The notes under the pieces are model-generated. The model searched no databases, was not told where the DNA came from, and was given only the letters and a program-made list of their open reading frames with translations. A program made the position numbers and the translations under genes. DNA of 64,000 nucleotides from Minwuia thermotolerans (GTDB lineage: Bacteria; Pseudomonadota; Alphaproteobacteria; Minwuiales; Minwuiaceae), in NCBI RefSeq assembly GCF_002924445.1, contig NZ_PIGG01000048.1, positions 1 to 64,000 on the forward strand, in the 5' to 3' direction. Below are positions 45,269 to 61,318 of the stretch, one piece after another (position 1 is the stretch's first letter; the number at the start of each line of letters is the position of its first letter).

Positions 45269-47248
45269 CTACGCCGCTTCGGCGGAACCGTCCACGATCC
45301 GGGCGATGTCGCTCATGATCGCGGCCAGGTCGAAGTCCTTGGGCGTATAGATTGCGGCGATGCCGGCGGCTTTCAGCGCCTCGGCGTCGGCCTTCGGGAT
45401 GATGCCGCCGACCACGACCGGCACGTCGCCCAGGCCCTCGGCGCGGAGGCCTTCGAGGACCTCCCGCGCCAGCGCGGCGTGGGAGCCGGACAGGATCGAG
45501 AGTCCCACCAGGTGAACCGATTCCTCCAGCGCCGCGGTGACGATCTGCTTCGGCGTCAGCCGGATGCCCTCGTAGACCACCTCCATGCCGGCGTCCCGGG
45601 CGGCGACGGCGATCTGCTCGGCGCCGTTGGAATGGCCGTCGAGGCCCGGCTTGCCCACCAGGATCTTGATGCGCCGGCCAAGCCGGGCCGAGACCTGCTC
45701 GACCTTCGAGCGGACCTCCGCCAGCCCCTCCGCGGCGACGCCGGCCGCGCCGCCAACGCCCGTCGGCGCGCGGTACTCGCCATAGACCCGGCGCAGCACG
45801 CCGGCCCACTCGCCGGTGGTGGCGCCGGCCTTCGCGGCGGCGATGGAGGCCTCCATGATGTTGCGGTCTTCCTTCGCGGCCTGTTCCAGCGCCGCCAGCG
45901 CGGCCTTCGCCGCCGCCTCGTCACGGCTCTCCCTCCAGGCGTTCAGGCTCTCGATCTGGTCGGCCTCGGCGCTCTCGTCGACGGTCAGGATGGCGTCCGC
46001 CGCCTCGGCCAGCGGCGAGGGCGCGCTCTCGGTGAAGCAGTTGACGCCGACCATCTTCAACTCGCCCGACATGATCGCCTGCACGCGCCGGGCGTTGCTC
46101 TCGACCAGCGCCTCCTTCATGTAGCCGCTCTCGACCGCCGCGATGGCGCCGCCCAGGCGCTCGATGGTCTTCATCTCGTCCAGCGCCCCGGCTTTCAGTT
46201 CGGCCACCTTGGCGTCGACCACGGGGCTGCCGTCGAACAGGTCGGCATATTCCAGAAGGTCGGTCTCGTGCGCCACGATCTGCTGGAGGCGCAGCGACCA
46301 TTGCTGGTCCCAGGGCCGCGGCAGGCCCAGCGCCTCGTTCCAGGCGGGCAGCTGCACCGCGCGGGCGCGGGCCTTCTTCGACAGCACCACCGCCAGCATC
46401 TCCAGCAGGATGCGGTAGACGTTGTTCTCGGGCTGCTGCTCGGTCAGGCCGAGAGAATTGACCTGCACGCCATAACGGAAGCGGCGGTTCTTTTCTTCCT
46501 CGACGCCGTAGCGGTCGCGCAGCATCTCGTCCCAGAGATCGACGAACGCGCGCATCTTGCACATCTCCTCGACGAAGCGGATGCCGGCGTTGACGAAGAA
46601 GCTGATGCGCCCGGCCACCTGCCCGAACATCTCGGGCGGCAGTTCGCCGCGCTCCTTCGTGGTGTCCAGCACCGCCCGCGCCGTCGACAGCGCGAAGGCC
46701 AGCTCCTGCGTCGGCGTCGCGCCGGCCTCCTGCAGGTGGTAGGAGCAGATGTTGGTCGGGTTCCACTTCGGCATTTCGGCGACCGTGAAGCCGATCACGT
46801 CGGCGATCAGCTTCAGGCTCGCCGCCGGCGGGAAGATGTAGGTCCCGCGCGAGAGATACTCCTTGATGATGTCGTTCTGGACGGTGCCCATCAGCTTCGT
46901 CCGGTCCGCGCCCTGTTCCTCGGCGGCGGCGATGTAGAGCGCCAGCAGCCACGGCGCCGTGGCGTTGATGGTCATGGAGGTGTTCATCTGCTCCAGGGGG
47001 ATGCCGTCGAACAGCGTCCGCATGTCGCCCAGATGGCCCACCGGCACGCCGACCTTGCCGACCTCCCCCTTCGCCAGCACGTGGTCGCTGTCGTAGCCGG
47101 TCTGCGTCGGCAGGTCGAAGGCGACCGAAAGGCCCGTCTGCCCGCGGCTCAGATTGGTGCGGTAGAGCTCGTTCGACGCCCTCGCCGACGAATGGCCCGA
47201 ATAGGTCCGGATCAGCCAGGGGCGGTCGCGTTCAGGGGTCTCGGTCAT
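45269..47248 (-). CDS. ecm: Ethylmalonyl-CoA mutase (B12-dependent)
   Basis: Coenzyme-B12 mutase that converts ethylmalonyl-CoA to methylsuccinyl-CoA. Single chain of 659 aa, shorter than methylmalonyl-CoA mutase, with the substrate barrel first (RPWLIRTYSGHSSARASNELY) and the C-terminal cobalamin domain with LDGHSNGAEQ, in which His539 would ligate cobalt. Assignment as Ecm rather than methylmalonyl mutase rests on length, N-terminal sequence and the divergent neighbour ccr, the preceding pathway enzyme. The start at 47248 gives MTETPERDRPWLIR. It shares the intergenic region and operator candidate with ccr. Confidence 0.93.
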   Translation of the reverse strand: MTETPERDRPWLIRTYSGHSSARASNELYRTNLSRGQTGLSVAFDLPTQTGYDSDHVLAKGEVGKVGVPVGHLGDMRTLFDGIPLEQMNTSMTINATAPWLLALYIAAAEEQGADRTKLMGTVQNDIIKEYLSRGTYIFPPAASLKLIADVIGFTVAEMPKWNPTNICSYHLQEAGATPTQELAFALSTARAVLDTTKERGELPPEMFGQVAGRISFFVNAGIRFVEEMCKMRAFVDLWDEMLRDRYGVEEEKNRRFRYGVQVNSLGLTEQQPENNVYRILLEMLAVVLSKKARARAVQLPAWNEALGLPRPWDQQWSLRLQQIVAHETDLLEYADLFDGSPVVDAKVAELKAGALDEMKTIERLGGAIAAVESGYMKEALVESNARRVQAIMSGELKMVGVNCFTESAPSPLAEAADAILTVDESAEADQIESLNAWRESRDEAAAKAALAALEQAAKEDRNIMEASIAAAKAGATTGEWAGVLRRVYGEYRAPTGVGGAAGVAAEGLAEVRSKVEQVSARLGRRIKILVGKPGLDGHSNGAEQIAVAARDAGMEVVYEGIRLTPKQIVTAALEESVHLVGLSILSGSHAALAREVLEGLRAEGLGDVPVVVGGIIPKADAEALKAAGIAAIYTPKDFDLAAIMSDIARIVDGSAEAA

Positions 47249-47333
47249 TTTCTGATCTTCCAAAAGGCAGGTCTTGTACGAACGAAAATTACGCCTTGCG
47301 TTTGGCGGCGGAAATATCATATCAGTCGCCGCA

Positions 47334-47362
47334 CTGCAAAACGGTAGTTTGCCGCTTTGCAG
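47334..47362. promoter_or_regulatory. Candidate operator between ecm and ccr (TTTGCA-type inverted repeat)
   Basis: CTGCAAAACGG and CCGCTTTGCAG form 11-bp arms with one mismatch around TAGTTTG. The site is in the shared upstream region of ecm (86 bp from its start) and ccr. TTTGCAA-type half-sites are the known binding pattern of ScfR-family regulators (RamB, PccR) of acetate and propionate metabolism, so control by short-chain acyl-CoA status is a reasonable inference. Confidence 0.5.
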
Positions 47363-47434
47363 CATAATTCCTGTACGATGGGAGGGTCCAGTCCCGCGCG
47401 CAAGCGGGGCCGGACGGATCCGGTAGCGAGATTT

Positions 47435-48748
47435 ATGGAGCATGACCTCATGGCGGAATTCCAGGCAGTCGAGAGCGAGCCGTCGGACCTGACGCAGGGC
47501 GAGAAGAAGGAGCTCTACGAGGTCGGGGAGATCCCGCCGCTGGGTCACGTACCGAAGAAGATGTACGCCTGGGCGATCCGCAAGGAGCGCGAGGGCGAGC
47601 CGGACAAGGCCATGCAGGTCGAGGTGGTCGAGACCCCCGAGCTGGACAGCCACGACGTGCTGGTTCTCGTGATGGCCGCGGGCGTCAACTACAACGGCGT
47701 CTGGGCGTCCCTCGGCACGCCCGTCTCCATGTTCGACGTCCACAAGCAGCCCTATCACATCGCCGGCTCCGACGCCGCGGGGGTGGTCTATGCCGTGGGC
47801 TCCAAGGTCAAGCGCTGGCAGGTCGGCGACGAGGTCGTCGTCCACTGCAACCAGGACGATGGCGACGACGTCGAATGCAATGGCGGCGACCCGATGTTCT
47901 CGCCCTCGCAGCGGATCTGGGGCTACGAGACGCCGGACGGCTCCTTCGCGCAGTTCGCCCGCGTCCAGGACCGCCAGCTCATGCCGCGGCCCAGGCATCT
48001 GACCTGGGAGGAGAGCGCCTGCTACACGCTCACTCTCGCCACCTCGTACCGCATGCTGTTCGGCCATCGCCCGCACATCCTGCGCCCCGGCGACAACGTG
48101 CTGATCTGGGGCGCGTCGGGCGGCATCGGTTCCATGGCGGTGCAGCTCTGCGCCACCGCCGGCGCCAACGCCATCGGCGTGATCTCCGAGGAGGACAAGC
48201 GCGAATTCGTCATGTCGCTGGGCGCCAAGGGCGTGATCAACCGCAAGGATTTCAACTGCTGGGGCCAGATGCCGACGGTCAACACCGAGGAATACGCCGC
48301 CTGGACAAAGGAAGTCCGCAAGTTCGGCAAGGCGATCTGGGACATCACCGGCAAGGGCAATGACGTCGACTTCGTTTTCGAGCATCCGGGCGAGGCGACC
48401 TTCCCCGTCAGCTGCATCATCGTGAAGCGCGGCGGCATGGTGGTCTTCTGCGCCGGTACCACCGGCTACAATCTGACCATGGACGCCCGCTATGTCTGGA
48501 TGCGCCAGAAGCGTATCCAGGGCAGCCACTTCGCCAACCTGAAGCAGGCCACCCAGGCCAATCAGCTGGTGATCGAACGGCGCATCGACCCGTGCATGTC
48601 CGAAGTCTTCAGCTGGGACGACATCCCGCGCGCCCACATGAAGATGTTCCGCAACGAGCACAAGCCCGGGAACATGGCGGTGCTGGTCTCGTCGAAGGTG
48701 CCGGGCCTGCGCACCATCGAGGACGCGATCGAGGTCGGCAACGGCTGA
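47435..48748 (+). CDS. ccr: Crotonyl-CoA carboxylase/reductase
   Basis: Key enzyme of the ethylmalonyl-CoA pathway: reductive carboxylation of crotonyl-CoA to ethylmalonyl-CoA with NADPH and CO2. It is a zinc-lacking MDR-family protein of about 437 aa. LYEVGEIPPLGHVPKKMYAWAI is a near-invariant Ccr segment (shown without its last residues), and the NADPH-binding motif WGASGGIGSMAVQ is in the Rossmann part. Starts at 47435 or 47450 are both possible. A strong terminator follows at 48794. Confidence 0.96.
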   Translation: MEHDLMAEFQAVESEPSDLTQGEKKELYEVGEIPPLGHVPKKMYAWAIRKEREGEPDKAMQVEVVETPELDSHDVLVLVMAAGVNYNGVWASLGTPVSMFDVHKQPYHIAGSDAAGVVYAVGSKVKRWQVGDEVVVHCNQDDGDDVECNGGDPMFSPSQRIWGYETPDGSFAQFARVQDRQLMPRPRHLTWEESACYTLTLATSYRMLFGHRPHILRPGDNVLIWGASGGIGSMAVQLCATAGANAIGVISEEDKREFVMSLGAKGVINRKDFNCWGQMPTVNTEEYAAWTKEVRKFGKAIWDITGKGNDVDFVFEHPGEATFPVSCIIVKRGGMVVFCAGTTGYNLTMDARYVWMRQKRIQGSHFANLKQATQANQLVIERRIDPCMSEVFSWDDIPRAHMKMFRNEHKPGNMAVLVSSKVPGLRTIEDAIEVGNG

Positions 48749-48793
48749 CCGCCGGCGGAGCCGCCCGGCCGGATATGCCGGGCGATGAGTTTG

Positions 48794-48833
48794 GCGAAGC
48801 GCGCATGATGACCGTCATGCGCGCTTCGCTTTT
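48794..48833 (+). terminator. Strong rho-independent terminator of ccr
   Basis: A perfect 15-bp stem (GCGAAGCGCGCATGA with TCATGCGCGCTTCGC) around a 6-nt loop, followed by TTTT. It lies 46 bp after the ccr stop and before icd, insulating the two. Confidence 0.88.
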
Positions 48834-48922
48834 GACGCCCGCGCGCGCGGTGATATAAGCGGCGCAGCTTCCGGGGCCGTGCCGGCCGCAGGATCAATCC
48901 GTGCAATCCGAAGAGGTGGGGA

Positions 48923-50134
48923 ATGAGCAAGATCAAGGTGAAAAATCCGGTCGTCGAGCTGGACGGCGACGAGATGACCCGGATCATCTGGGATTTCATC
49001 AAGCAGAAGCTGATCCTGCCCTATCTCGATATCGACCTGCACTATTACGACCTGGGCGTCGAGGAGCGCGACCGCACCGACGACCAGATCACCGTCGACG
49101 CGGCCGAGGCCATCAAGAAGTACGGCGTCGGCGTCAAGTGCGCCACCATCACCCCCGACGAGCAGCGCGTCGAGGAGTTCAAGCTCAAGAAGATGTGGCG
49201 CAGCCCCAACGGCACCATCCGCAACATCATCGGCGGCACCATCTTCCGCGAGCCGATCGTCTGCCAGAACGTGCCGCGTCTGGTGCCGGGCTGGACCGAT
49301 CCCATCGTCATCGGCCGTCACGCCTATGGCGACCAGTACCGCGCCACCGACTTCGTGGTCCCCGGCAAGGGCAAGCTGACCATCAAGTTCGAGGGCGAGG
49401 ACGGCAAGACCATCGAGCGCGAGGTCTTCGACTTCCCCGGCGGCGGCGTCGCCATGTCCATGTACAATCTGGACGATTCCATCCGCGACTTCGCCCGGGC
49501 GTGCATGAACTACGGCCTGAACCGCGGCTGGGACGTCTACCTGTCGACCAAGAACACCATCCTGAAAGCCTATGACGGCCGCTTCAAGGATCTGTTCCAG
49601 GAGGTCTACGAGGCCGAGTTCAAGGACAAGTTCGACGCCAAGGGCATGATCTACGAACATCGCCTGATCGACGACATGGTGGCCTGCGCCATGAAGTGGT
49701 CCGGCAAGTACATCTGGGCCTGCAAGAACTACGACGGCGACGTGCAGTCCGACACGGTCGCCCAGGGCTTCGGCTCGCTGGGCCTGATGACCTCGGTGCT
49801 GATGACGCCCGATGGCAAGACCGTCGAGGCCGAGGCGGCCCACGGCACGGTTACCCGCCACTACCGCATGCATCAGCAGGGCAAGGAGACCTCGACCAAT
49901 CCGATCGCGTCGATCTTCGCCTGGACCCGGGGTCTGGGCTATCGCGGTCAGATGGACGAGACGCCCGAGGTGGTGAACTTCGCCCAGACGCTGGAAAAGG
50001 TCTGCGTGCAGTCGGTCGAGAACGGCCAGATGACCAAGGATCTGGCCATCCTGATCGGCCCCGACCAGCCCTGGATGACCACCAACCAGTTCCTCGACGC
50101 CCTGGACCGGAACCTCCAGAAGGCGCTGAGCTGA
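48923..50134 (+). CDS. icd: NADP-dependent isocitrate dehydrogenase
   Basis: TCA-cycle enzyme that oxidatively decarboxylates isocitrate. The 403-aa protein is of the eukaryotic-like type II family ([20 protein letters not shown] start; the substrate and metal segments [13 protein letters not shown] and [13 protein letters not shown]). AGGTGGGGA stands just before the ATG. It follows the ccr terminator and is convergent with glsA. Confidence 0.98.
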
Positions 50135-50140
50135 GCCAAC

Positions 50141-50173
50141 GGCGCGCGGGCCGGCTCGCCCGGTTCGCGCGCC
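50141..50173. terminator. Candidate bidirectional hairpin between icd and glsA
   Basis: GGCGCGC and GCGCGCC flank further pairing bases between two convergent genes. There is no T run on either side, so termination is only a guess from position. Confidence 0.35.
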
Positions 50174-50186
50174 GCCTTCGCTGCGA

Positions 50187-51134
50187 TCAGCGGAAGACCG
50201 AGAGCTCCAGCCGCTTCGACAACACGCCCAGCGCCTTCATGGCGCCGATGGAGTTGCCCTTCTGACCCAGGGCGGGTCCGAAGCCGGCGATCGCCATGCG
50301 CCCCGGCGCGATGGCGAGGACCGCGCCGCTCACCGAGCTTTTCGACGGCAGGCCAACCTCGATGGCGTGGCTGCCGACCTCGTCGTACATGCCCGACGTC
50401 GCCATCAGCGCCAGCACGCCATGCGCGTTGGCCGGCGTGATGATGTGCTCGCCGGTGATCGGGTCTGCGCCGGCGTTGGTCAGGAACATGGCTATCCGCG
50501 CCAGATGCTCGGCGGTGCAGGTGACCGCGCACTGCCGGAAATAGGTCTCGACAGCGACTTCCACGTCGCTGATGACCTTGTGGTGGCGCATGATCTCCGC
50601 CAGCGCCCGGTTGCGGTGGCCCGTCTCCGCTTCCGAGCGGAAGACCGCCTCGTTGACCGGGAACGCGGCCGCCTCCAGCCCGCTGGCGCGCCCGAGGAAA
50701 GCCTGGAAATGGGCGATCTTGTCCGATGCGTCGACGCCCGGCAGGTGATCGCTGGTCAGGATCGCGCCGGCATTGATGTAGGGATTGCGCGGCTGCCCTT
50801 TCTCCTCCTCCAGCTTGACGATGGAGAAGAAGGCGTCGCCCGACGGCTCGGTCGACATATGCTCGAAGACCCGCTCGCCGGAATGCTCGATCACGGCGGA
50901 GAGCGAGAAGATCTTGGAAACGCTCTGCATCGTGAAGGGGTGGGCGGCGTCGCCGATCGAGGCGGTGACGCCGTCGACGGTGTGCACCGCGATCCCGAAC
51001 AGGGACGGGTCCACCCGGGCCAGTTCGGGGATGTAGGTCGCGACATGGCCGTGGGCGCATTTGGCGAGGCCGGCCTGATAGGCCTCGTCCAGCGCCGCCT
51101 CGATGGCCGCCCTGTCCGGGACCGGCCGGGTCAT
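50187..51134 (-). CDS. glsA: Glutaminase (serine-dependent, GlsA type)
   Basis: Hydrolyses glutamine to glutamate and ammonia. The serine-beta-lactamase-like fold has the catalytic QSVSKIF motif near residue 70 and NPYINAGAI for substrate binding. 315 aa, normal. Its ATG at 51134 overlaps the stop of the Anbu peptidase gene by 4 nt, so translation is coupled to that gene. Confidence 0.95.
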   Translation of the reverse strand: MTRPVPDRAAIEAALDEAYQAGLAKCAHGHVATYIPELARVDPSLFGIAVHTVDGVTASIGDAAHPFTMQSVSKIFSLSAVIEHSGERVFEHMSTEPSGDAFFSIVKLEEEKGQPRNPYINAGAILTSDHLPGVDASDKIAHFQAFLGRASGLEAAAFPVNEAVFRSEAETGHRNRALAEIMRHHKVISDVEVAVETYFRQCAVTCTAEHLARIAMFLTNAGADPITGEHIITPANAHGVLALMATSGMYDEVGSHAIEVGLPSKSSVSGAVLAIAPGRMAIAGFGPALGQKGNSIGAMKALGVLSKRLELSVFR

Positions 51135-51868
51135 GCGATCTCGGGCCAGTCAGCCGGCGCGAGGTCCCGCACGGCCTGCCGGATGGCGTCGCTGTAGCTG
51201 TTGCGGATGTTGACGAAGTAGGGATCTTCCATCTCCACCCGCCGGACCTGGATCGGGCCCAGCGATCCGGCGCGGTAGATCACCATGTCGAAGGGCGGCG
51301 CCACCGACAGGTTGCTGCGCACGGTGGCGTCGAAGCTGAGCAGCGTCAGCTTCACCGCTTCGGACAGGCTGGTCCTGAACTGCATGGCGCGGTCCAGGAT
51401 CGGCTTGCCGTACTTGACCTCGCCGATCTGCAGGTAGGGCGTGTCCGGGGACGCCTCGATGAAGTTGCCGGCCGGATAGATCAGGAACAGCCGGTGCGGC
51501 CCGCCGGCGATCTGGCCGGCGAACAGGAAGCTTGCCGAGGGATCGCCATAGGCCTGCACGTGCTGGGCATTGGCGCTCATCACCTCGCGCAGCACGCTGC
51601 CGACCATCTTGGTGGCGTCGAACATCGTCGCCGCATCGAACAGGTTGGTCGGGTTGCCGCCCTGGCCCAGGCGCTGGTTCAGGATGGTGACCACCGCCTG
51701 GGTGGTCGCCAGGTTGCCGGCGGAGGCCAGCACCATGACCCGCTCGTCCGCGTTCTGGAACGCCGAGATCTTCGAGATGGTCGCGATATGGTCGACACCG
51801 GCGTTGGAGCGCGTGTCGGCGGTGACGACGAAGCCGTCCTCCAGGAACAGGCCAAGTCCGTAAGTCAT
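51131..51868 (-). CDS. Anbu-type proteasome-like peptidase
   Basis: Protein of the Anbu (ancestral beta subunit) family, proteasome- and HslV-related self-compartmented peptidases. After Met removal, Thr2 (MTYGLGLFLEDGFV) would be the N-terminal nucleophile, and DTRSNAGVDHI near residue 18 and ISKI near 33 supply the conserved Asp and Lys. 245 aa. Anbu genes usually lie with a transglutaminase, an alpha-E domain protein and a circularly permuted ATP-grasp. Those partners are not adjacent here; the gene is instead coupled to glsA. Confidence 0.87.
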   Translation of the reverse strand: MTYGLGLFLEDGFVVTADTRSNAGVDHIATISKISAFQNADERVMVLASAGNLATTQAVVTILNQRLGQGGNPTNLFDAATMFDATKMVGSVLREVMSANAQHVQAYGDPSASFLFAGQIAGGPHRLFLIYPAGNFIEASPDTPYLQIGEVKYGKPILDRAMQFRTSLSEAVKLTLLSFDATVRSNLSVAPPFDMVIYRAGSLGPIQVRRVEMEDPYFVNIRNSYSDAIRQAVRDLAPADWPEIA

Positions 51869-52091
51869 TCTGTTGCGGTCTCCCTCCGCGGCGTTTCACG
51901 TCGCCCGCGGCGTTGTCGAGGACGGGGATGTTGCGCCCATGCCGCCCGCCGCGAAAGCGGATTCTTTACTCGGGCCGGGGTGAAGTCCGATTTTCCCCTC
52001 CCGCCTTGCCGGCGGCGCATTGGAACCTGACCGGGCCGGCCGCCTGCCCTATAGTCAGGGCTGTTGTCGATACCGCGCAGGGGAGGGCGTC

Positions 52092-53105
52092 ATGCCGATC
52101 GATCAGGCCTGGCTGGATCAGGTTCAGGAAGAAGTCATCGAGCCGGACCGGCCGATCATCGACCCGCACCACCATCTCTGGGACTATCCCGGCTCTCGCT
52201 ATCTGCTGGACGAACTGCTCTCCGACATGGGTTCCGGTCACAACGTCGTCGCCACGGTCTTCGTCGAGTGCGGCGCCATGTACCGCGCCGACGGGCCGGA
52301 ACACCTGAAGCCTGTGGGCGAGACCGAGTTCGTCAACGGCGTTGCCGCCATGAGCGCGTCGGGGACCTACGGCGCCGCCCGCGCCTGCGCAGGCATCGTG
52401 GGCCTGGCCGACCTCAACCTGGGCAGCCGCGTCGGCGAGGTGCTGGACGCCCACATGCGCGCGGCGCCCGACCGCTTCCGCGGCATCCGCCATGTCGCAG
52501 CCCATGACGACAGCCCGGACGTCAGGGTGGCGCACACGAAGCCGTTCAGGCACATGCTGGCCGACGCCACCTTCCGCGAAGGCTTTGCCGAACTGCAAAA
52601 GCGGGACATGAGCTTCGAGGCCTGGGTCTACCATCCCCAGATCCGGGAGGTGACCGAACTGGCCCGCGCCTTTCCCGACACGGTGATCATCGCCGACCAC
52701 TTTCTCGGACCGCTGGGCATCGGGCCCTATGAGGGCAAGCGCGACGAGATCTTCGAGCAGTGGAAGCTCGATTTCGCGGAACTGGCGCGCTGCGAGAACG
52801 TGGTGGCGAAGCTGGGCGGCCTCAACATGGCCGTGAACGGCTTCGGCTGGCACAAGCGCGACAAGCCGCCCACGGCGCGCGAGCTGGTGGCGGCGACGGG
52901 CGACTGGTACGTCCACGCCATCGACTGCTTCGGACCCGGGCGCTGCATGTTCGAGAGCAACTTCCCCGTCGACAAGCTGTCGGTCAGCTATCCGGTGCTG
53001 TGGAACGCCTTCAAGCTGATCGCCGCCGCCTATACGGAGGCCGAGCGCGACGCCCTGTTCCACGACACCGCGAAACGGGTCTACCGGCTCGACCTGCCGG
53101 ATTGA
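52092..53105 (+). CDS. Amidohydrolase 2 family hydrolase (lactonase-like)
   Basis: TIM-barrel metal-dependent hydrolase of about 337 aa. The metal motif DPHHHLWDYP near residue 24, further histidines in RGIRHVAAHD and IADHFLGP, and the closing GRCMFESNFPVDK (Asp near the end) are those of the amidohydrolase 2 clan, which includes L-fuconolactonase and 2-pyrone-4,6-dicarboxylate hydrolase. GGGGAGG precedes the ATG. It may belong with the sugar-acid genes near 57-59 kb, but it is not in their operon. Confidence 0.85.
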   Translation: MPIDQAWLDQVQEEVIEPDRPIIDPHHHLWDYPGSRYLLDELLSDMGSGHNVVATVFVECGAMYRADGPEHLKPVGETEFVNGVAAMSASGTYGAARACAGIVGLADLNLGSRVGEVLDAHMRAAPDRFRGIRHVAAHDDSPDVRVAHTKPFRHMLADATFREGFAELQKRDMSFEAWVYHPQIREVTELARAFPDTVIIADHFLGPLGIGPYEGKRDEIFEQWKLDFAELARCENVVAKLGGLNMAVNGFGWHKRDKPPTARELVAATGDWYVHAIDCFGPGRCMFESNFPVDKLSVSYPVLWNAFKLIAAAYTEAERDALFHDTAKRVYRLDLPD

Positions 53106-53118
53106 CCGCAGGGAGCGT

Positions 53119-54579
53119 TCAGCCGCGTCTGGCGAGCAGGGCGCGGGCCTGGCCGGCCAGGGTTTCAGCGCGAGCCTGGCTATCGGCCACGGCGAGAAAG
53201 GGGAATCCGGCGCTGCGCTCGATTCCGCCGACGGCAAGCGGGACGATGCCTTCATTTTTCCCGCGGCGCAGCAGGAACGGTCCCAGCAGGTCGTAGAGCG
53301 CTTCGGCGGTTCGCACGCGCAGTTGCAGGGACTGGTCCTGTACGATGACCATGCCGCGGCCGGCGTGGCGGCCGAAGAACCGGTTGACGAAGCTCATCGG
53401 GATCGAAACCCCGCCCCATCTGCCGTTGCACTCGATCCAGTGCACGCCACGGGCGCGCCCGGCCTCGCCGGTGATCAGGCAGTCGAAGCTGCAACGTCCG
53501 AAATAGCCGAGCGCCTGCAGATGTACGGCCAGCGCCATCGCCTCGCGGCAGATGCGGCGCAGCACGCCGACCGATAACACAGCCGGAGCGGCGCCTATGA
53601 ATTCGGCTTCGTCACCGGCCAGGCGTTGCTCGAAGATGCCTTCCACCACCGGATCTCCGTCACCGGGGGCGGGGATCCAGATCTGCGCCGAGGGGCTGGA
53701 CAGGGCGGCGGTCTCCCAGACGCCGACCAGCAGCGGATAGCGGTCGCGCCAGCCTCGGGCGCGCAGGATGTCCAGGACGCAGCAATGCAGCCTTTCGGTG
53801 CTGAAGCCGCGGATCAGCGCCGCGTCGAGGTTCACATTGCCCAGGGAACCGGCGCTGTCCGGCGTCTTGACGATGACCTGTTCGCAATTGCGGGCGAGGC
53901 GCCGTATGTGCGCCGCCAGGGCCGCCGGCCCATAGGCGGCGAAAGTGGGCGGCAGGGCCTGTGGACCAAGCACCGCCCGCACGCGGTCAGCAAACCAGAT
54001 CTTGTCGTTGACCCGCTTGGCGAGCTGCGGCGGCGGTGCGGCGACCCTGACCGGGACGCGGGCGACATCGGCGATTGTTCCGGCCAGCGCCCAGTCCTTA
54101 CCCGAGCCCAAATAGGGGACGATCTGGAAGCAGCCCCGGTCCCGGGCCGCGTCGGCGAAGCGCGCGGCCAGCGCCGGCGACCGGCAGCGGCTTGCGATCG
54201 CCGCCGGGCCGCCCCGCTCCGGCGGGCCGATCTCGATGATCCGAAGGTCGTGGATGCCGAGCAGGTGGCGGACGAAGGCCTCGTGGCGCGGGCAGGCCTT
54301 CTCGACGACGAGGAAGTCGCCCTCGTCGGCCAGCAGGGCTATCCGATGCTCCAGCCGCTGTTCCCGCATTCCCGCGAACAGCCCGACTTCCCGCTGATCG
54401 CCGATCAGGAGGGCGGGCCCCGGCTTCAGACCGGACGAAACCCGCGGGCCGAAGAAGTCGGTCCGCCCGAGCGAGGGCTCGTTTGCGAGAACTGCCCTGG
54501 CCATCCGCAGGAGTCGCCGCCGTTCCCTCTGCGGTAGATGGACTGCCAGGCGTTCGACGATCGGAATCGCCGGCCGCAT
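53119..54579 (-). CDS. ATP-grasp ligase-like protein (PreATP-grasp type)
   Basis: Protein of about 486 aa with an ATP-grasp fold: a Lys in VIVKTPDSAGSLGNVN for ATP, and the metal-binding end motif WIECNGRWGGVSIP. The N-terminal half resembles the PreATP-grasp region of peptide-ligase-like (PGM1-related) enzymes. The reaction would join a carboxylate to an amine with ATP; the substrates are unknown. The start at 54579 has no clear ribosome-binding site; upstream GTG codons in frame are possible. It is head-to-head with a class II glutamine amidotransferase, which could supply ammonia. Confidence 0.7.
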   Translation of the reverse strand: MRPAIPIVERLAVHLPQRERRRLLRMARAVLANEPSLGRTDFFGPRVSSGLKPGPALLIGDQREVGLFAGMREQRLEHRIALLADEGDFLVVEKACPRHEAFVRHLLGIHDLRIIEIGPPERGGPAAIASRCRSPALAARFADAARDRGCFQIVPYLGSGKDWALAGTIADVARVPVRVAAPPPQLAKRVNDKIWFADRVRAVLGPQALPPTFAAYGPAALAAHIRRLARNCEQVIVKTPDSAGSLGNVNLDAALIRGFSTERLHCCVLDILRARGWRDRYPLLVGVWETAALSSPSAQIWIPAPGDGDPVVEGIFEQRLAGDEAEFIGAAPAVLSVGVLRRICREAMALAVHLQALGYFGRCSFDCLITGEAGRARGVHWIECNGRWGGVSIPMSFVNRFFGRHAGRGMVIVQDQSLQLRVRTAEALYDLLGPFLLRRGKNEGIVPLAVGGIERSAGFPFLAVADSQARAETLAGQARALLARRG

Positions 54580-54791
54580 TGTGTCTCGGGCGTCCGGACC
54601 ATGCGTCTTCCGTGCCGACACGCCCTCATCCCCAAGCTTGGTGAATTCCTGGCCATAGAGTTGCCCGTCCCTGCGCGCCCGGCCGAAATGCGTGCTCGGC
54701 GGCGATTCGCCCTTTGACGCGCCGTTGCCAAAGGAGACTATTCTCGGGACCAAAGCTGCGCAACGCGCCCTGGGGGAAGGAGAATGCCGGA
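54580..54791. promoter_or_regulatory. Divergent promoter region of the ATP-grasp and amidotransferase genes
   Basis: This gap of about 210 bp separates the two start codons and should contain both promoters, unless the ATP-grasp protein begins further upstream. No clear operator is seen. Confidence 0.35.
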
Positions 54792-55637
54792 ATGTGCCGT
54801 CTCTATGCGCTTCGGGCGAATGAGCCCACTCGGGTCGAATGCGGTCTTGTCCGTTCCCAGAACAACCTCATGCGCCAGAGCCAGGGCGACGCCGAGGGAC
54901 TGGCGCACGGCCATGGCTGGGGTGTTGCCGAGTATCCCGACGGCGTACCGATGCTGGAGCGTCAGACATGGGCCGCGTTCCATGGCGAGCATTTCGCGAA
55001 GAAGGCGGCCCGCGTCTACGCACACACCGTGATCGCGCATGTGCGCCGCGCAACTGTGGGTTCGCCGCGTATCGAGAACACCCACCCCTTCGTCTTCGGC
55101 CGCTACATCTTCGCCCACAACGGCACCTTGCCGAACTTCGAGGCGATCCGACCGCGCCTGCTGGAGCATGTCGACCCGCTTCATCACGATGAGATCCGGG
55201 GCGATACCGACAGCGAACATGTATTCCATTACCTGCTGACACGCTGGGCGCACGGACCGCAGACCGACCTGCTCGAAACCGTGCGCGAAGGCGTCGAGCG
55301 GATCGTCCGATGGTGTGCGGAACTGGCCCCCGGCAAGCCCGTCGGGCTCAATATCGTTCTTGGCGACGGCGAACGCATGGTCGGCACGCGGCTGAACCGG
55401 ACGCTCTGGTACCTGGAGCGTGACGGCCTTGTCCGCTGCGACATCTGCGGGCAGACGCATGTGCACCACAAGCCGAGATCCGACTACCGTTCCGCCGAGG
55501 TCGCGTCGGAACCGGTGACGCCGGAGGAGGCCTGGCGGCAGGTGCCGAACGGAACGGTCTATGCCGTCGACCCCGACTACAAACTGCATTTCGAGCCGCT
55601 TAGACTGCCGGAAGGCGCGCTCCGGGAAGCCGGTTGA
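54792..55637 (+). CDS. Class II glutamine amidotransferase
   Basis: Ntn-type glutaminase domain protein of about 281 aa (YafJ-like). Cys2 directly follows the start Met and would be the nucleophile. IAHVRRATVGSPR and FVFGRYIFAHNGTLPNF supply the family's glutamine and oxyanion residues. AAGGAG about 9 nt upstream fixes the start. Near residues 217-227 it contains a CxxC-x3-H-x-HH cluster that could bind a metal. No synthase domain is fused, so ammonia may go to a partner such as the divergent ATP-grasp protein. Confidence 0.86.
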   Translation: MCRLYALRANEPTRVECGLVRSQNNLMRQSQGDAEGLAHGHGWGVAEYPDGVPMLERQTWAAFHGEHFAKKAARVYAHTVIAHVRRATVGSPRIENTHPFVFGRYIFAHNGTLPNFEAIRPRLLEHVDPLHHDEIRGDTDSEHVFHYLLTRWAHGPQTDLLETVREGVERIVRWCAELAPGKPVGLNIVLGDGERMVGTRLNRTLWYLERDGLVRCDICGQTHVHHKPRSDYRSAEVASEPVTPEEAWRQVPNGTVYAVDPDYKLHFEPLRLPEGALREAG

Positions 55638-55647
55638 AGGGCGTTGT

Positions 55648-55938
55648 CTATTTCAACTCGATCTCGACGAAGACGAACTCGAAGGGGTTGTCGTTGATCA
55701 CGTCGTGCTCAACGCCGGCGTCGCGGGCGTAGGAGACGCCTGCGGCGAGCGGCGCCTTCGCCACGCCGTTGGCGGTTTCGATGCTGAGTTCGCCGGTCGT
55801 GACGGGGACCACGACATAGTCCATGCCGTGGCGGTGCCAGCCTGTGTGGGCCCCGGGCGCAAAGCGCCATTCGGTGACCACGACGCGGTCGGTCTCGAGC
55901 TGCTTCGTCGGCACGGCCCAGGGCCGGTTGTCGCTCAT
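55648..55938 (-). CDS. Small cupin-domain protein
   Basis: Single cupin of 96 aa. The first metal motif is visible in GAHTGWHRHGMDYVVVPVTTGEL (shown in part; GxxHxH-x-E/D-like) and the second in DAGVEHDVIND. GGAGAAGG precedes the ATG at 55938. The role is unknown. It is convergent with the amidotransferase gene and stands alone. Confidence 0.8.
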   Translation of the reverse strand: MSDNRPWAVPTKQLETDRVVVTEWRFAPGAHTGWHRHGMDYVVVPVTTGELSIETANGVAKAPLAAGVSYARDAGVEHDVINDNPFEFVFVEIELK

Positions 55939-56086
55939 TCGGCCTTCTCCATCAGCATGGCGCGGGGTCCGGACTTCAGCGTCCTTCCTCGCCCATGAAG
56001 GATGCCGCAGGCCAGAGGCGCCGGCCGCGCCCGGGGACAGGGTACATGCCCTGTTGCGGGTGCGCCAGCCGGCGCGGCGGGCTGGT

Positions 56087-56575
56087 CTACCGCGTGTTGA
56101 CGATGCGCCACGTGCCGTCGGCCTGGCGGCAGGCCGTTCCGGTCGCCAGTTCATCGCGGCCGTCGATGATCACCCGCTGCTGGTAGTCGCGGCAGTCAAG
56201 GCCGTCCGCCGACCTGTAGGTGTTGGTTGGTGTGAAAGTGCCGGAATGCTGCGTGTCCGGGTTGACCCAGGTTGACGTTGTCCCGCTGCGGGAACTCTCC
56301 AGGCTCCGCTGGGCGGTGCGCTCGGCGTAGAGCCTGTCGGACTTGTCCAGCGAGCGTCCGACCTCGGAGCCGAGATAGGCGCCCAGCAGGGTGCCGCCCG
56401 CAGTTGCGGCGAGCTGGCCGGCGCCGCCGCCGATCTGCGAACCCAGCAGGCCGCCCACCGCGGCGCCGATCAGGGCGCCGCCCACTTCCTTCTGGCCGGC
56501 GGTATTGGTTTCGCATGCGGCCAGGCCCAGTGTGAGCGCGACGGCGATACAGGCGATCTTGGATTTCATGGTCAT
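56087..56575 (-). CDS. Glycine-zipper outer-membrane lipoprotein (17 kDa antigen-like)
   Basis: Lipoprotein of about 162 aa with a lipobox (LAAC near residue 21 after the signal sequence). A glycine-zipper segment follows (IGAAVGGLLGSQIGGGAGQ, then GGTLLGAYLGSEVG), and the C-terminal half resembles the surface antigen/RcpC-like domain ending WRIVNTR. Starts at 56575 and 56569 are both possible. Likely anchored in the outer membrane; the function is structural or unknown. Confidence 0.82.
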   Translation of the reverse strand: MTMKSKIACIAVALTLGLAACETNTAGQKEVGGALIGAAVGGLLGSQIGGGAGQLAATAGGTLLGAYLGSEVGRSLDKSDRLYAERTAQRSLESSRSGTTSTWVNPDTQHSGTFTPTNTYRSADGLDCRDYQQRVIIDGRDELATGTACRQADGTWRIVNTR

Positions 56576-56736
56576 TGTTCCATGTGCTTGAGCTGACGAA
56601 CGCAGACTAGCGGTTCGGCGTTCCGCAGCCTTGATCCTGGTCAACTCGGCACGAGGAATCTGAACGCGGCCTGTCTGCGGCGCCGGGGGCGGCTCCCGCA
56701 GATAACCGGTCAGTCACGGCCGGGACGCGGTCCGGT

Positions 56737-58477
<1,741 letters not shown>

Positions 58478-58481
<4 letters not shown>

Positions 58482-58885
58482 GCGGCCCGGCCCGGCGAGG
58501 CCATCGCGGCGGCCACCGCCTCGATCTCCACCCTCATGCGCGGATCGACCAGGGCGCTGACCACCACCAGCGTCGAGGCGGTCAGCCGGCCCTCCATCCG
58601 TTCGTCGCGTATCCGGCGATAGGCGGCGACGTCGCCGGCGTCGGTCAGATAGATGTTCAGCCGCACGACGTCCGCCACGCCCATGTCCGCCTCGGCCAGG
58701 ATGGCGAAGACGTTGTCGAAGGCGACATGGATCTGCCCGTCGATGTCATCGGGGATGTTGCCCTTGCGGTCGAGGCCGACCTGCCCGGAGATGAAGCACC
58801 AGCGGCAGTCGGGGGGAACCTCCATGCCCGGTGCGAAACGCGAGCCCGGATTGGCGTGTCCCTTCGGTTCCAGAACCCTGTTCAT
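58478..58885 (-). CDS. RidA/YjgF family deaminase
   Basis: RidA-like protein of 135 aa. The family core is visible as FISGQVGLDRKGNIPDDI with its conserved Gly-Gln, and the C-terminal VDPRMRVEIEAVAA carries the catalytic Arg and Glu. GGGAGG stands about 10 nt before the ATG. It deaminates reactive imine or enamine intermediates. It is the first gene of the ridA-denD-SDR operon. Confidence 0.87.
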
Positions 58886-59014
58886 GGCTTTTCGACCTCC
58901 CTGTTGTCGCGGGGCGTCTCGCCGGCCCCTTCGGCGGGAATCGTAGCCGCGTTCGCCGGGCCTGTCAGTGCTTGACCGCCAGCACCGCCGCGTTTAAACA
59001 GCGGCCTCTCCGGT

Positions 59015-59092
59015 GGCGGGTGTAGCTCAGTCGGTTAGAGCGCCAGATTGTGGCTCTGGAGGTCGTCGGTTCAATTCCGATCACTCGCCCCA
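59015..59092 (+). tRNA. tRNA-His(GTG)
   Basis: The 7-bp acceptor stem GCGGGTG pairs with CACTCGC. G-1 at 59015 faces the discriminator C, the hallmark of histidine tRNA. The D arm has GCTCAGTCGGTTAGAGC, the anticodon GTG is at 59050-59052 and the T arm is GTCGGTTCAATTCCGAT. CCA is encoded. Confidence 0.97.
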
Positions 59093-59183
59093 ACTTCCTT
59101 CTTCGAGCGGTACCGAACGCCGCCTCGTGACATCCGGCGAAACCCGTGATGGAACGGTGCCGCGGATATTGCTCGAATGACGC

Positions 59184-59218
59184 GAATTCGTCCGAAATGC
59201 ATGAAGAATTCGTCGGAA
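59184..59218. promoter_or_regulatory. Two direct repeats (GAATTCGTCSGAA) upstream of the alpha-oxoamine synthase
   Basis: Copies at 59184-59196 and 59206-59218 differ at one base and are 22 bp apart from start to start, close to two turns of the helix. That suits side-by-side binding of a regulator. They lie about 125 bp before the downstream start codon. Confidence 0.4.
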
Positions 59219-59341
59219 CGGCCGTCAATCGACAGCCGTTAACCAGAACGGTTCACCGCTCGTTAAGCCCGTAGTTCCACTCTGCCGCGTACTAGGATAC
59301 GCGGCCCAGAACCGGTCCGCCCGCTTCGGAGGAACCGAAAC

Positions 59342-60688
59342 ATGAACGACGACGCCAGCCTTCCTCCCGAAGCGCTCGTGGGCAGCCTCAGGGATTACCG
59401 CATCATCGAAGGCGCCGACCTCCTCGGTCGCACGGAAGCCTTCTTCGACTGGCAGAACCTGCGCCGCCGCCACGATCTCTGGCCCTATTCCCGCTCCACG
59501 GCCACCGCGCCGAAGTCCTCCTGCAGCGCCTTCGACGACACCGGCAAGGATGTGCAGGGCGTCAACTTCGCCTCTCAGGACTATCTCAGCCTGGCTTCGC
59601 ATCCGGCCATCAAGGAGGCTGCGATCCGGGCGATCACCGATTTCGGCGCCCACAGCGCCGGTTCGGCGGCGTTGCTCGGCAATACCGGCCTGTCTCTGCG
59701 GCTGGAAGCCGAGATCTCCGGCTTTCTGGGCCGCGATCACACGGTGCTCTATCCCACGGGCTGGTCCGCCGGCTTCGGCGTCGTCCAGGGCCTGGTGCGG
59801 CCCGACGATCACGTGGTCATGGACGTGCTGGCCCATAGCTGCATGCAGCAGGGCGCGGCCGCCGCGACGAAGAACATCCACCTGCACGGCCACCTCAACC
59901 TGGATGGCGTGCGGCGCAAGCTGAAGCGGATCCGCGACAAGGATGCGAAGAACGGCATCCTCGTCGTCACCGAGAGCCTGTTCTCCATGGACTCCGACAC
60001 GCCGAAGCTGCGCGAACTGCAGAATCTCTGCCACGAGTTCGGCGCCATCCTTCTGGTCGACGCCGCGCACGACCTGGGCTGCATGGGCGAGGATGGCCGT
60101 GGCCAGCTTGGCCTGCAGAACATGATCGACGACGTCGACATCATCGTCGGCAGCTTCTCCAAGACCTTCGCTTCCAATGGCGGCTTCGTGACCGCCGGGT
60201 CGCGGGCGGTGAAGGAGTACCTGAAGTACTACAGCGCGCCGCAGACCTTCTCCAACGCGCTCTCGCCCATGCAGGCGGCGGTCGTGCTGAAGGCCTTCGA
60301 GATCGTCCGCTCCGATGAGGGCCGTCAGCTGCGCCGCGATCTGATGAACAACACCCTCTATCTGCGCGAGCAGCTCAAGGAGGCGCGCTTCGACGTTTCC
60401 GGCGATCCTTCGGCGATCGTGCCGGTGCATATCGGCGCCGAGGGCCATGCCCGCATGGCGGCCCAGGAACTGGCCAAGCGCGGGGCCATCGCCAACCTGG
60501 TGGAGTATCCGGCCGTCGCCCGCGGCGGCGCGCGGTTCCGCCTGCAGGTCATGGCACGGCACCACAAGGCCGAGATCGACCATCTGGTCGGCCGTATGCG
60601 CGAAGCGGTGGACGAGGCGGAAATCCGCTTCCGCCCGCACCGCGGCGCTGCGCCGGCGAAGGCCGCCCGCGCGGCCCGCGCCGCCTGA
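59342..60688 (+). CDS. Alpha-oxoamine synthase family PLP enzyme (serine palmitoyltransferase/BioF-like)
   Basis: PLP-dependent acyl-CoA:amino acid condensing enzyme of about 448 aa. The PLP Lys is in GSFSKTFASNGGF. DAAHDLGCMGEDGRG gives the Asp and His of the cofactor site, and VNFASQDYLSLASHP is the N-terminal family strand. The family covers ALAS, KBL, BioF and serine palmitoyltransferase. FSKTFAS plus NGG leans toward the SPT/KBL side but is not decisive. GGAGGAACC precedes the ATG. Its Ala-rich C-terminal tail (PAKAARAARAA) is not part of the fold. Confidence 0.82.
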   Translation: MNDDASLPPEALVGSLRDYRIIEGADLLGRTEAFFDWQNLRRRHDLWPYSRSTATAPKSSCSAFDDTGKDVQGVNFASQDYLSLASHPAIKEAAIRAITDFGAHSAGSAALLGNTGLSLRLEAEISGFLGRDHTVLYPTGWSAGFGVVQGLVRPDDHVVMDVLAHSCMQQGAAAATKNIHLHGHLNLDGVRRKLKRIRDKDAKNGILVVTESLFSMDSDTPKLRELQNLCHEFGAILLVDAAHDLGCMGEDGRGQLGLQNMIDDVDIIVGSFSKTFASNGGFVTAGSRAVKEYLKYYSAPQTFSNALSPMQAAVVLKAFEIVRSDEGRQLRRDLMNNTLYLREQLKEARFDVSGDPSAIVPVHIGAEGHARMAAQELAKRGAIANLVEYPAVARGGARFRLQVMARHHKAEIDHLVGRMREAVDEAEIRFRPHRGAAPAKAARAARAA

Positions 60689-60699
60689 ACAAGCCGGCC

Positions 60700-60720
60700 G
60701 GCCGCCCCCTGCGGGCGGCC
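60700..60720 (+). terminator. GC hairpin after the alpha-oxoamine synthase gene
   Basis: GGCCGCCC and GGGCGGCC form an 8-bp stem with a 5-nt loop right after the stop codon. There is no T run, so intrinsic termination is uncertain. Confidence 0.4.
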
Positions 60721-60779
60721 CGGCGGCAGCCCCCCGGTGAGGTATCAAGGGGTTGCGTCCCGAATGGAGAACGCGATCG

Positions 60780-61202
60780 ATGACCTCGCCATCGGCCGTC
60801 CCGCGACTGCTGGCCATTGACGACGACGCCGATTCCGCTGAGCTGGTCGCCCGCGTCGCGGCCCGCGCCGGCTTCGAGGCGGACTGGATCGCCGATCCGC
60901 GTCTGGCCGCCGAGACGGTCTCGCGGGTCGGTCCCGACGTCGTCACCCTGGACCTCTGCATGCCGGACCTGGACGCGCTGGACGTGCTGGGCGAACTCCG
61001 CGAGGCCGGCTTCGACGGCGCCATCCTGATCGTTTCCGGTCAGCCCGACAGCATCCGCAACGCCGCGGCCCGTCTCGCCGAGGCGAACGGCCACGAGGTC
61101 GCGGGCAATTTCCGCAAGCCGGTGGATGTCGCGGCCATGCGCAGGCGGCTGTTCGACATCGCCGCGGCCCGCGCCGGAGGCGGCGCGCGAAGCGGCGGCT
61201 GA
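60780..61202 (+). CDS. Single-domain response regulator
   Basis: Receiver-only protein of 140 aa with the acidic pocket DDD at residues 14-16, phospho-acceptor Asp58 in TLDLCMP and the Lys of FRKPVD near 115. No output domain and no adjacent kinase. GGAGAA precedes the ATG at 60780. It lies between the alpha-oxoamine synthase and mcd, with no visible functional link. Confidence 0.88.
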   Translation: MTSPSAVPRLLAIDDDADSAELVARVAARAGFEADWIADPRLAAETVSRVGPDVVTLDLCMPDLDALDVLGELREAGFDGAILIVSGQPDSIRNAAARLAEANGHEVAGNFRKPVDVAAMRRRLFDIAAARAGGGARSGG

Positions 61203-61318
61203 CGCGCTCCGCCGGGCCGAATCCGGGCGCTGCCGCGACAAGTTCCCTGTGGCAATTGCCGGTCGGATCGGCCATAAACGCCGCCAATTTCCGACAACAG
61301 CCGCAGCAGAGTACCTCC

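Follow-up and report, generated by a model that had tools for sequence, protein, structure and literature searches.

The window, the 64,000-nt stretch of Minwuia thermotolerans DNA analyzed here, contains the divergently oriented genes ecm (minus strand) and ccr (plus strand), which are separated by an intergenic region of 201 bp (Table 1). The product of ccr scored 631.8 bits with TIGR01751 (cut-off 378.55), and the start at 47450 was picked from an upstream GGAG and the genus alignment. The ecm product belongs to the methylmalonyl-CoA-mutase superfamily (PF01642, B12-binding) and scored 551.9 bits, i.e., below the cut-off of 876 for the methylmalonyl-CoA mutase equivalog. The name ecm was thus based on superfamily membership, the score under the mutase equivalog cut-off, and the position next to ccr. 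The intergenic region holds an inverted repeat, CTGCAAAACGG-TAGTTTG-CCGCTTTGCAG, with two 11-nt arms (10 of 11 positions complementary) and a 7-nt spacer. The sequence-only reading had reported an 11-bp inverted repeat with TTTGCAG/CTGCAAA half-sites and a TAGTTTG spacer between the divergent genes, and the repeat is present as reported.

Table 1. Features of the ecm-ccr region (positions in the window)
Feature	Position	Strand	Description
ecm, probable ethylmalonyl-CoA mutase	45269..47248	-	PF01642 superfamily, place beside ccr
Possible ecm -10, TATGAT	47316..47321	-	Reading of the sequence; the box 1 core would fall in the spacer
Box 1, PhaR-type: AGTCGC CGCACTGCA AAACGG	47324..47344		Core 47330-47338, exact YGCRNYGCR
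Inverted repeat	47334..47362		Arms are portions of box 1 and box 2
Box 2, PhaR-type: GTTTGC CGCTTTGCA GCATAA	47347..47367		Core 47353-47361, one departure from YGCRNYGCR
ccr, crotonyl-CoA carboxylase/reductase	47450..48748	+	TIGR01751 above cut-off

A scan of the region for consensus promoters and terminators found neither. The TATGAT hexamer was kept in six of the seven aligned sequences, with a one-base difference in the family member G008. On the ecm side, AAAATTAYGYCTTGC (47285-47300) was kept in all seven aligned genus and family members. A probable mcd lies approximately 12.6 kb past ccr in M. thermotolerans (window 48749-61318) and approximately 10.2 kb past it in its sister G006, whereas mcd follows ccr within about 250 bp in G001, G003, G004, and G008, so the ccr-mcd pair is split in the former two. 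No match to ccr was obtained in G005 (89% complete).

The repeat was first of all considered as a palindrome. Repeats of equal quality (arms of 11 nt, at most one mismatch, spacer of 3–20 nt, overlapping registers counted) occurred 71 times in the window versus 32.7 on average over 30 shuffles. The pattern CTGCAAA-N15-TTTGCAG had one exact match in the M. thermotolerans genome, the repeat itself; with up to three mismatches, 46 sites were obtained versus 54 for the reversed control, so there is no genome-wide family of such palindromes. Among 115 ccr upstream regions, the palindrome was found with zero or one mismatch in three: those of M. thermotolerans, G006 (Ccr 98% identical), and G300. 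The arms had two to three mismatches in four other genus members, and a single palindromic operator was rejected because its arms are not kept across the genus. What is conserved in the ccr upstream regions of the genus and the class is TGC-N3-GCA with A/T arms, not the palindrome. The bare palindrome is only mildly unusual, and the part of it that goes beyond chance is the two boxes within the repeat.

These boxes resemble the published site of PhaR, the PHB-sensing repressor. The PhaR motif in Paracoccus denitrificans is CTGCN3GCAG. The palindrome published for Sinorhizobium meliloti PhaR is WNWD2NYGCRNYGCRNH2WNW (PMC12542648). The box centers are at 47334 and 47357, 23 bp apart, and the core of box 1 is the sole YGCRNYGCR in the ecm-ccr intergenic region. 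When a matrix trained on ccr loci was applied, box 1 (scored at 47324-47342) reached 12.6 bits and rank 3 of 63,982 window positions, and box 2 (scored at 47349-47367) 11.6 bits and rank 5 of 63,982. The top window match to this matrix, at 52583-52601 (15.7 bits), is located inside an ORF (52020-53105) and presumably due to chance. Another matrix contained no ccr sequences and was built from 23 core-bearing boxes taken from phaP, phaC, and phaZ in the genus and family of M. thermotolerans. It placed box 2 at rank 1 of 63,980 window positions (16.1 bits, runner-up 13.4), and box 1, with 4.9 bits, came no higher than rank 25 of 63,980. Based on these ranks, the repeat arms belong to two PhaR-type boxes. 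Compared with the flanks W-N-W-D-D-N and N-H-H-W-N-W, the arms of box 2 are near those of the species' own phaP boxes, and those of box 1 partly so. The YGCRNYGCR core alone is frequent, with 75 occurrences in the 64-kb window, and by itself means little there. The ccr upstream region of M. thermotolerans scored 11.7 bits, under the 12-bit line used below (median in genomes with PhaR, 19.8). All six genus members having ccr (M. thermotolerans, G001-G004, and G006) carried two boxes 22–23 bp apart. The right-hand core has two departures from the consensus in G001-G004 and a single one in M. thermotolerans and G006. Conservation of two PhaR boxes, rather than of a palindrome, would account for a site that is kept while the palindrome is lost.

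For conservation across Alphaproteobacteria, the 80 top-ranking ccr loci among 594 matches were taken, of which L105 and L150 were left out because their upstream sequence was too short; this gave 78 upstream regions of up to 300 bp. In 71 of these 78, the published PhaR core was present; the reversed motif was found in 12 of 78, and dinucleotide shuffles gave an expectation of 16.7. An unguided motif search in the same non-genus set returned tTTgTGCAtTGCaacAaAa, which is the PhaR motif and underlies the ccr-trained matrix, with a log-likelihood ratio (LLR) of 587; three shuffled sets gave LLR values of 128–133, the gap being indicative only, since the shuffled sets got fewer starts and no last refinement. 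The seven regions of the 78 (best 80 of 594 matches) in which the core was missing were those of L075, Methyloceanibacter, Hyphomicrobium (two), Methylocystaceae, and Methylocystis (two). Other Hyphomicrobium and Methyloceanibacter loci had the core, so these sequences give only a hint that some methylotrophs may have dropped it.

The presence of the box was then set against that of PhaR in 385 genomes of the class, ccr being found in 112 and PhaR in 231. Presence and absence of PhaR in the 112 ccr genomes were compared by eye from the result tables. Ten ccr genomes from five families were without PhaR (G016, G072, G125, G137, G149, G162, G247, G259, G327, and G337). In all 112 genomes, 400 bp before ccr were scored (G312 gave 95 bp only), and a strong box was defined as at least 12 bits with the ccr-trained matrix. 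Strong boxes were detected in 88 of the 102 genomes with PhaR versus two of the ten without it (Fisher p 2.3e-5, a statistic that ignores ancestry). The corresponding counts were 95/102 versus 2/10 for the published core and 20/102 versus 0/10 for the reversed motif. The 14 genomes with PhaR and no box at 12 bits included M. thermotolerans and G004. The two genomes having the box and no PhaR, G072 and G125, are 68% and 80% complete, respectively, and their PhaR may be absent merely from the assembly. The eight genomes lacking both represent three families, and two of them are incomplete (G162, 79%; G259, 68%). In G162, G259, and G337, which are small, AT-rich, and without PhaR, the ccr reading frame is interrupted by one TAG and one TAA. 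All 20 genomes with PhaR and an upstream region below 50% GC had the box; this low-GC control answers base composition only in part, as its mean GC was 0.46 versus 0.34 in the ten genomes without PhaR. Some of the surveyed genomes were also among the loci that trained the ccr matrix, and the PHB-gene matrix was therefore used as a check that avoids this overlap. At 10 bits, it detected boxes in 83 of 97 PhaR genomes outside the family of M. thermotolerans, in one of the ten without PhaR, and in 6 of 240 coding pieces.

The M. thermotolerans genome encodes PhaR on a contig away from ccr (C26; TIGR01848 above cut-off, PF07879 and PF05233), as well as a class I PHB synthase and a depolymerase (TIGR01838 and TIGR01849 above cut-offs) and phasins. 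At its PHB genes, the ccr-trained matrix gave 22.0 and 17.2 bits for phaP (cores 60 bp apart), 22.9 bits for phaC, 16.6 bits for phaZ, and 12.6 bits between phaR and the adjoining synthase-like gene. A PhaR-type box of 12.2 bits was also found before an etfB-like gene (PF01012; L171 1385-1403, G000:C81 near 28387). Electron transfer flavoprotein would accept electrons from Mcd. Two further PhaR-type boxes, 54 bp apart and one of them of 13.2 bits, are located at L166 1789-1863 (G000:C31:429288-429362). The strict extended PhaR pattern was tried for defining the regulon in this genome and rejected as too GC-driven (37 matches versus 29 in the control, at most one mismatch); its matches included the promoters of phaP, phaZ, phaR, and the etfB-like gene. 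Upstream of mcd, there was neither a YGCRNYGCR core nor a PhaR-type box. No PhaR-type box was found upstream of the probable mcl1 (L285, named from reading of its sequence) or of its counterpart in G003, and the G008 counterpart had one of 12.1 bits. The shared site that the sequence-only reading had expected before other genes of the pathway is therefore lacking at mcd and the probable mcl1, which goes against both that reading and a PhaR regulon spanning the whole pathway; the latter was rejected for this genome.

PccR recognizes TTTGCAAA-type boxes, and the earlier reading had likened the half-site to those of the ScfR family (RamB, PccR). The region would then be one palindromic operator of an acyl-CoA-binding ScfR-family regulator of the RamB, PccR, or MccR type. 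The half-sites do include TTTGCA, and the genome does encode one ScfR-family protein, as that reading had anticipated (L001 361-2396, G000:C76, the only such gene, followed by a response-regulator gene, PF00072). This protein, however, scored 307.5 bits against a RamB cut-off of 700, TTTGCAAA was present in none of the 115 ccr upstream regions, and the palindrome is not conserved. TTTGCAA had no match in the window versus 2.05 expected, and TTTGCAA/TTGCAAA was found in 25 of the 115 upstream regions, with no occurrence in the six regions from the genus or in that of G008 from the family; a resemblance to PccR-type boxes was thus not supported. In P. denitrificans, an ScfR gene also adjoins a two-component system. 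There, RamB acts on acetyl-CoA assimilation and influences ccr and ecm levels, both transcripts being raised by ramB deletion, but the PccR and MccR homologues were without effect on a ccr reporter (PMC10370305). At the glyoxylate-cycle operon of that species, the RamB site consists of two boxes separated by 18 bp. The genome studied here is without a RamB-grade protein. An ScfR effect is possible in species with RamB and unlikely here, and an ScfR-type operator at this repeat is quite improbable.

The boxes could also merely resemble PhaR boxes and serve another regulator, e.g., a TetR protein like CcrR, which activates ccr in Methylorubrum extorquens (PMC4207312). The link of PhaR to the ecm and ccr boxes comes from sequence comparison. 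Against another protein, recognition between the two matrices is reciprocal, the PHB-gene one detecting the boxes before ccr and the ccr-trained one those at the species' own PHB genes. The box also tracks PhaR in 112 genomes, and the ccr upstream region of M. bullatum, which belongs to the genus group of the original CcrR work, had no PhaR-type box when scored with the ccr-trained matrix. Another regulator is thus considered unlikely. The repeat could also form a hairpin in a leader RNA or be a palindrome by chance. In line with this, its 29 nt fold well as RNA in both orientations (z -3.7 and -4.7), and 22 of 1000 shuffled versions of the intergenic region contain such a repeat. The arms, however, have diverged in the four other genus members while the box positions are unchanged, the region from one of these members (L015) folds only somewhat better than its shuffles (z -1.4), no terminator-like site was found in the scan, and the boxes are conserved across families. 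In L015, the shorter perfect palindrome GCAAAACGCGTTTTGC is still present. The hairpin was rejected, as the sequence folds in this species and the long pairing is lost within the genus, and either explanation, hairpin or chance, is very improbable.

The region 47324-47367 is likely a two-box PhaR operator, at which PhaR would repress the divergent ecm and ccr genes until PHB granules titrate it. The site is probably regulatory and is so placed that it could serve both genes, as the sequence-only reading had suggested, although not as a single palindromic operator; similarly, the acyl-CoA-linked regulator proposed there would likely be one from C4 acyl-CoA/PHB metabolism, the ScfR family being unsupported. 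PhaR of S. meliloti represses phasin and depolymerase genes and is sequestered by PHB, and at phaP1 and phaP2 two copies of its site flank the -35 element (PMC12542648). In the Bradyrhizobium diazoefficiens phaP1 promoter, two boxes flank the -35 and the proximal one overlaps the -10 (PMC10888616). The M. thermotolerans region resembles the phaP operators of S. meliloti (PhaR/AniA) and B. diazoefficiens in the YGC-RNY-GCR core, the pairing of boxes, the presence of PhaR and PHB genes, and in part the A/T arms. It differs from them in that the predicted boxes are closer (23 bp center to center) and weaker, and in that the target would be the ethylmalonyl-CoA pathway instead of genes for PHB granules. 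CcrR of M. extorquens is likewise a dedicated transcription factor on ccr, but an activator (PMC4207312).

By analogy, PhaR would occupy the promoters of ecm and ccr as long as PHB has not built up; we infer its binding, the repression, the response of both genes, and PHB as the signal. Free PhaR on both boxes would block the two divergent promoters, and the possible ecm -10, with the core of box 1 in the spacer, agrees with repression. Upon acetyl-CoA overflow, carbon would pass through acetoacetyl-CoA and 3-hydroxybutyryl-CoA to PHB, and the granules would titrate PhaR off the DNA. Both ecm and ccr would then be derepressed jointly with the phasin, depolymerase, and synthase genes, and the C4 acyl-CoA pool common to PHB and the ethylmalonyl-CoA pathway would be drained into biosynthesis. 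As PHB synthesis and the pathway use this common pool, a PHB-sensing repressor on ccr would switch directly between storage and assimilation.

The switching on of the ethylmalonyl-CoA pathway is known for few species, with RamB effects in Paracoccus and CcrR in Methylorubrum. No link of PhaR to ccr or ecm was found in the literature searched, from the available portions of papers including PMC4207312, PMC7109303, PMC2948502, and PMC11237726, most subscription papers and regulon databases being outside its scope. The word "ethylmalonyl" occurs 0 times in the main text of the S. meliloti PhaR regulon paper (PMC12542648), and ccr is absent from the main text of the M. extorquens phaR-mutant study (PMC6520949). 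The widely conserved box upstream of ccr is predicted to be a new target of a known regulator, PhaR. For most Alphaproteobacteria with the ethylmalonyl-CoA pathway, it seems reasonably probable that Ccr, together with Ecm where the genes are divergent, is a direct ancestral PhaR target, that the granule itself signals the opening of acetyl-CoA assimilation, and that loss of PhaR entailed loss of the operator. If true, this would be a class-wide rule, relevant to the engineering of PHB and dicarboxylic-acid producers, and the conservation of the box suggests how carbon storage is coupled to acetate use.
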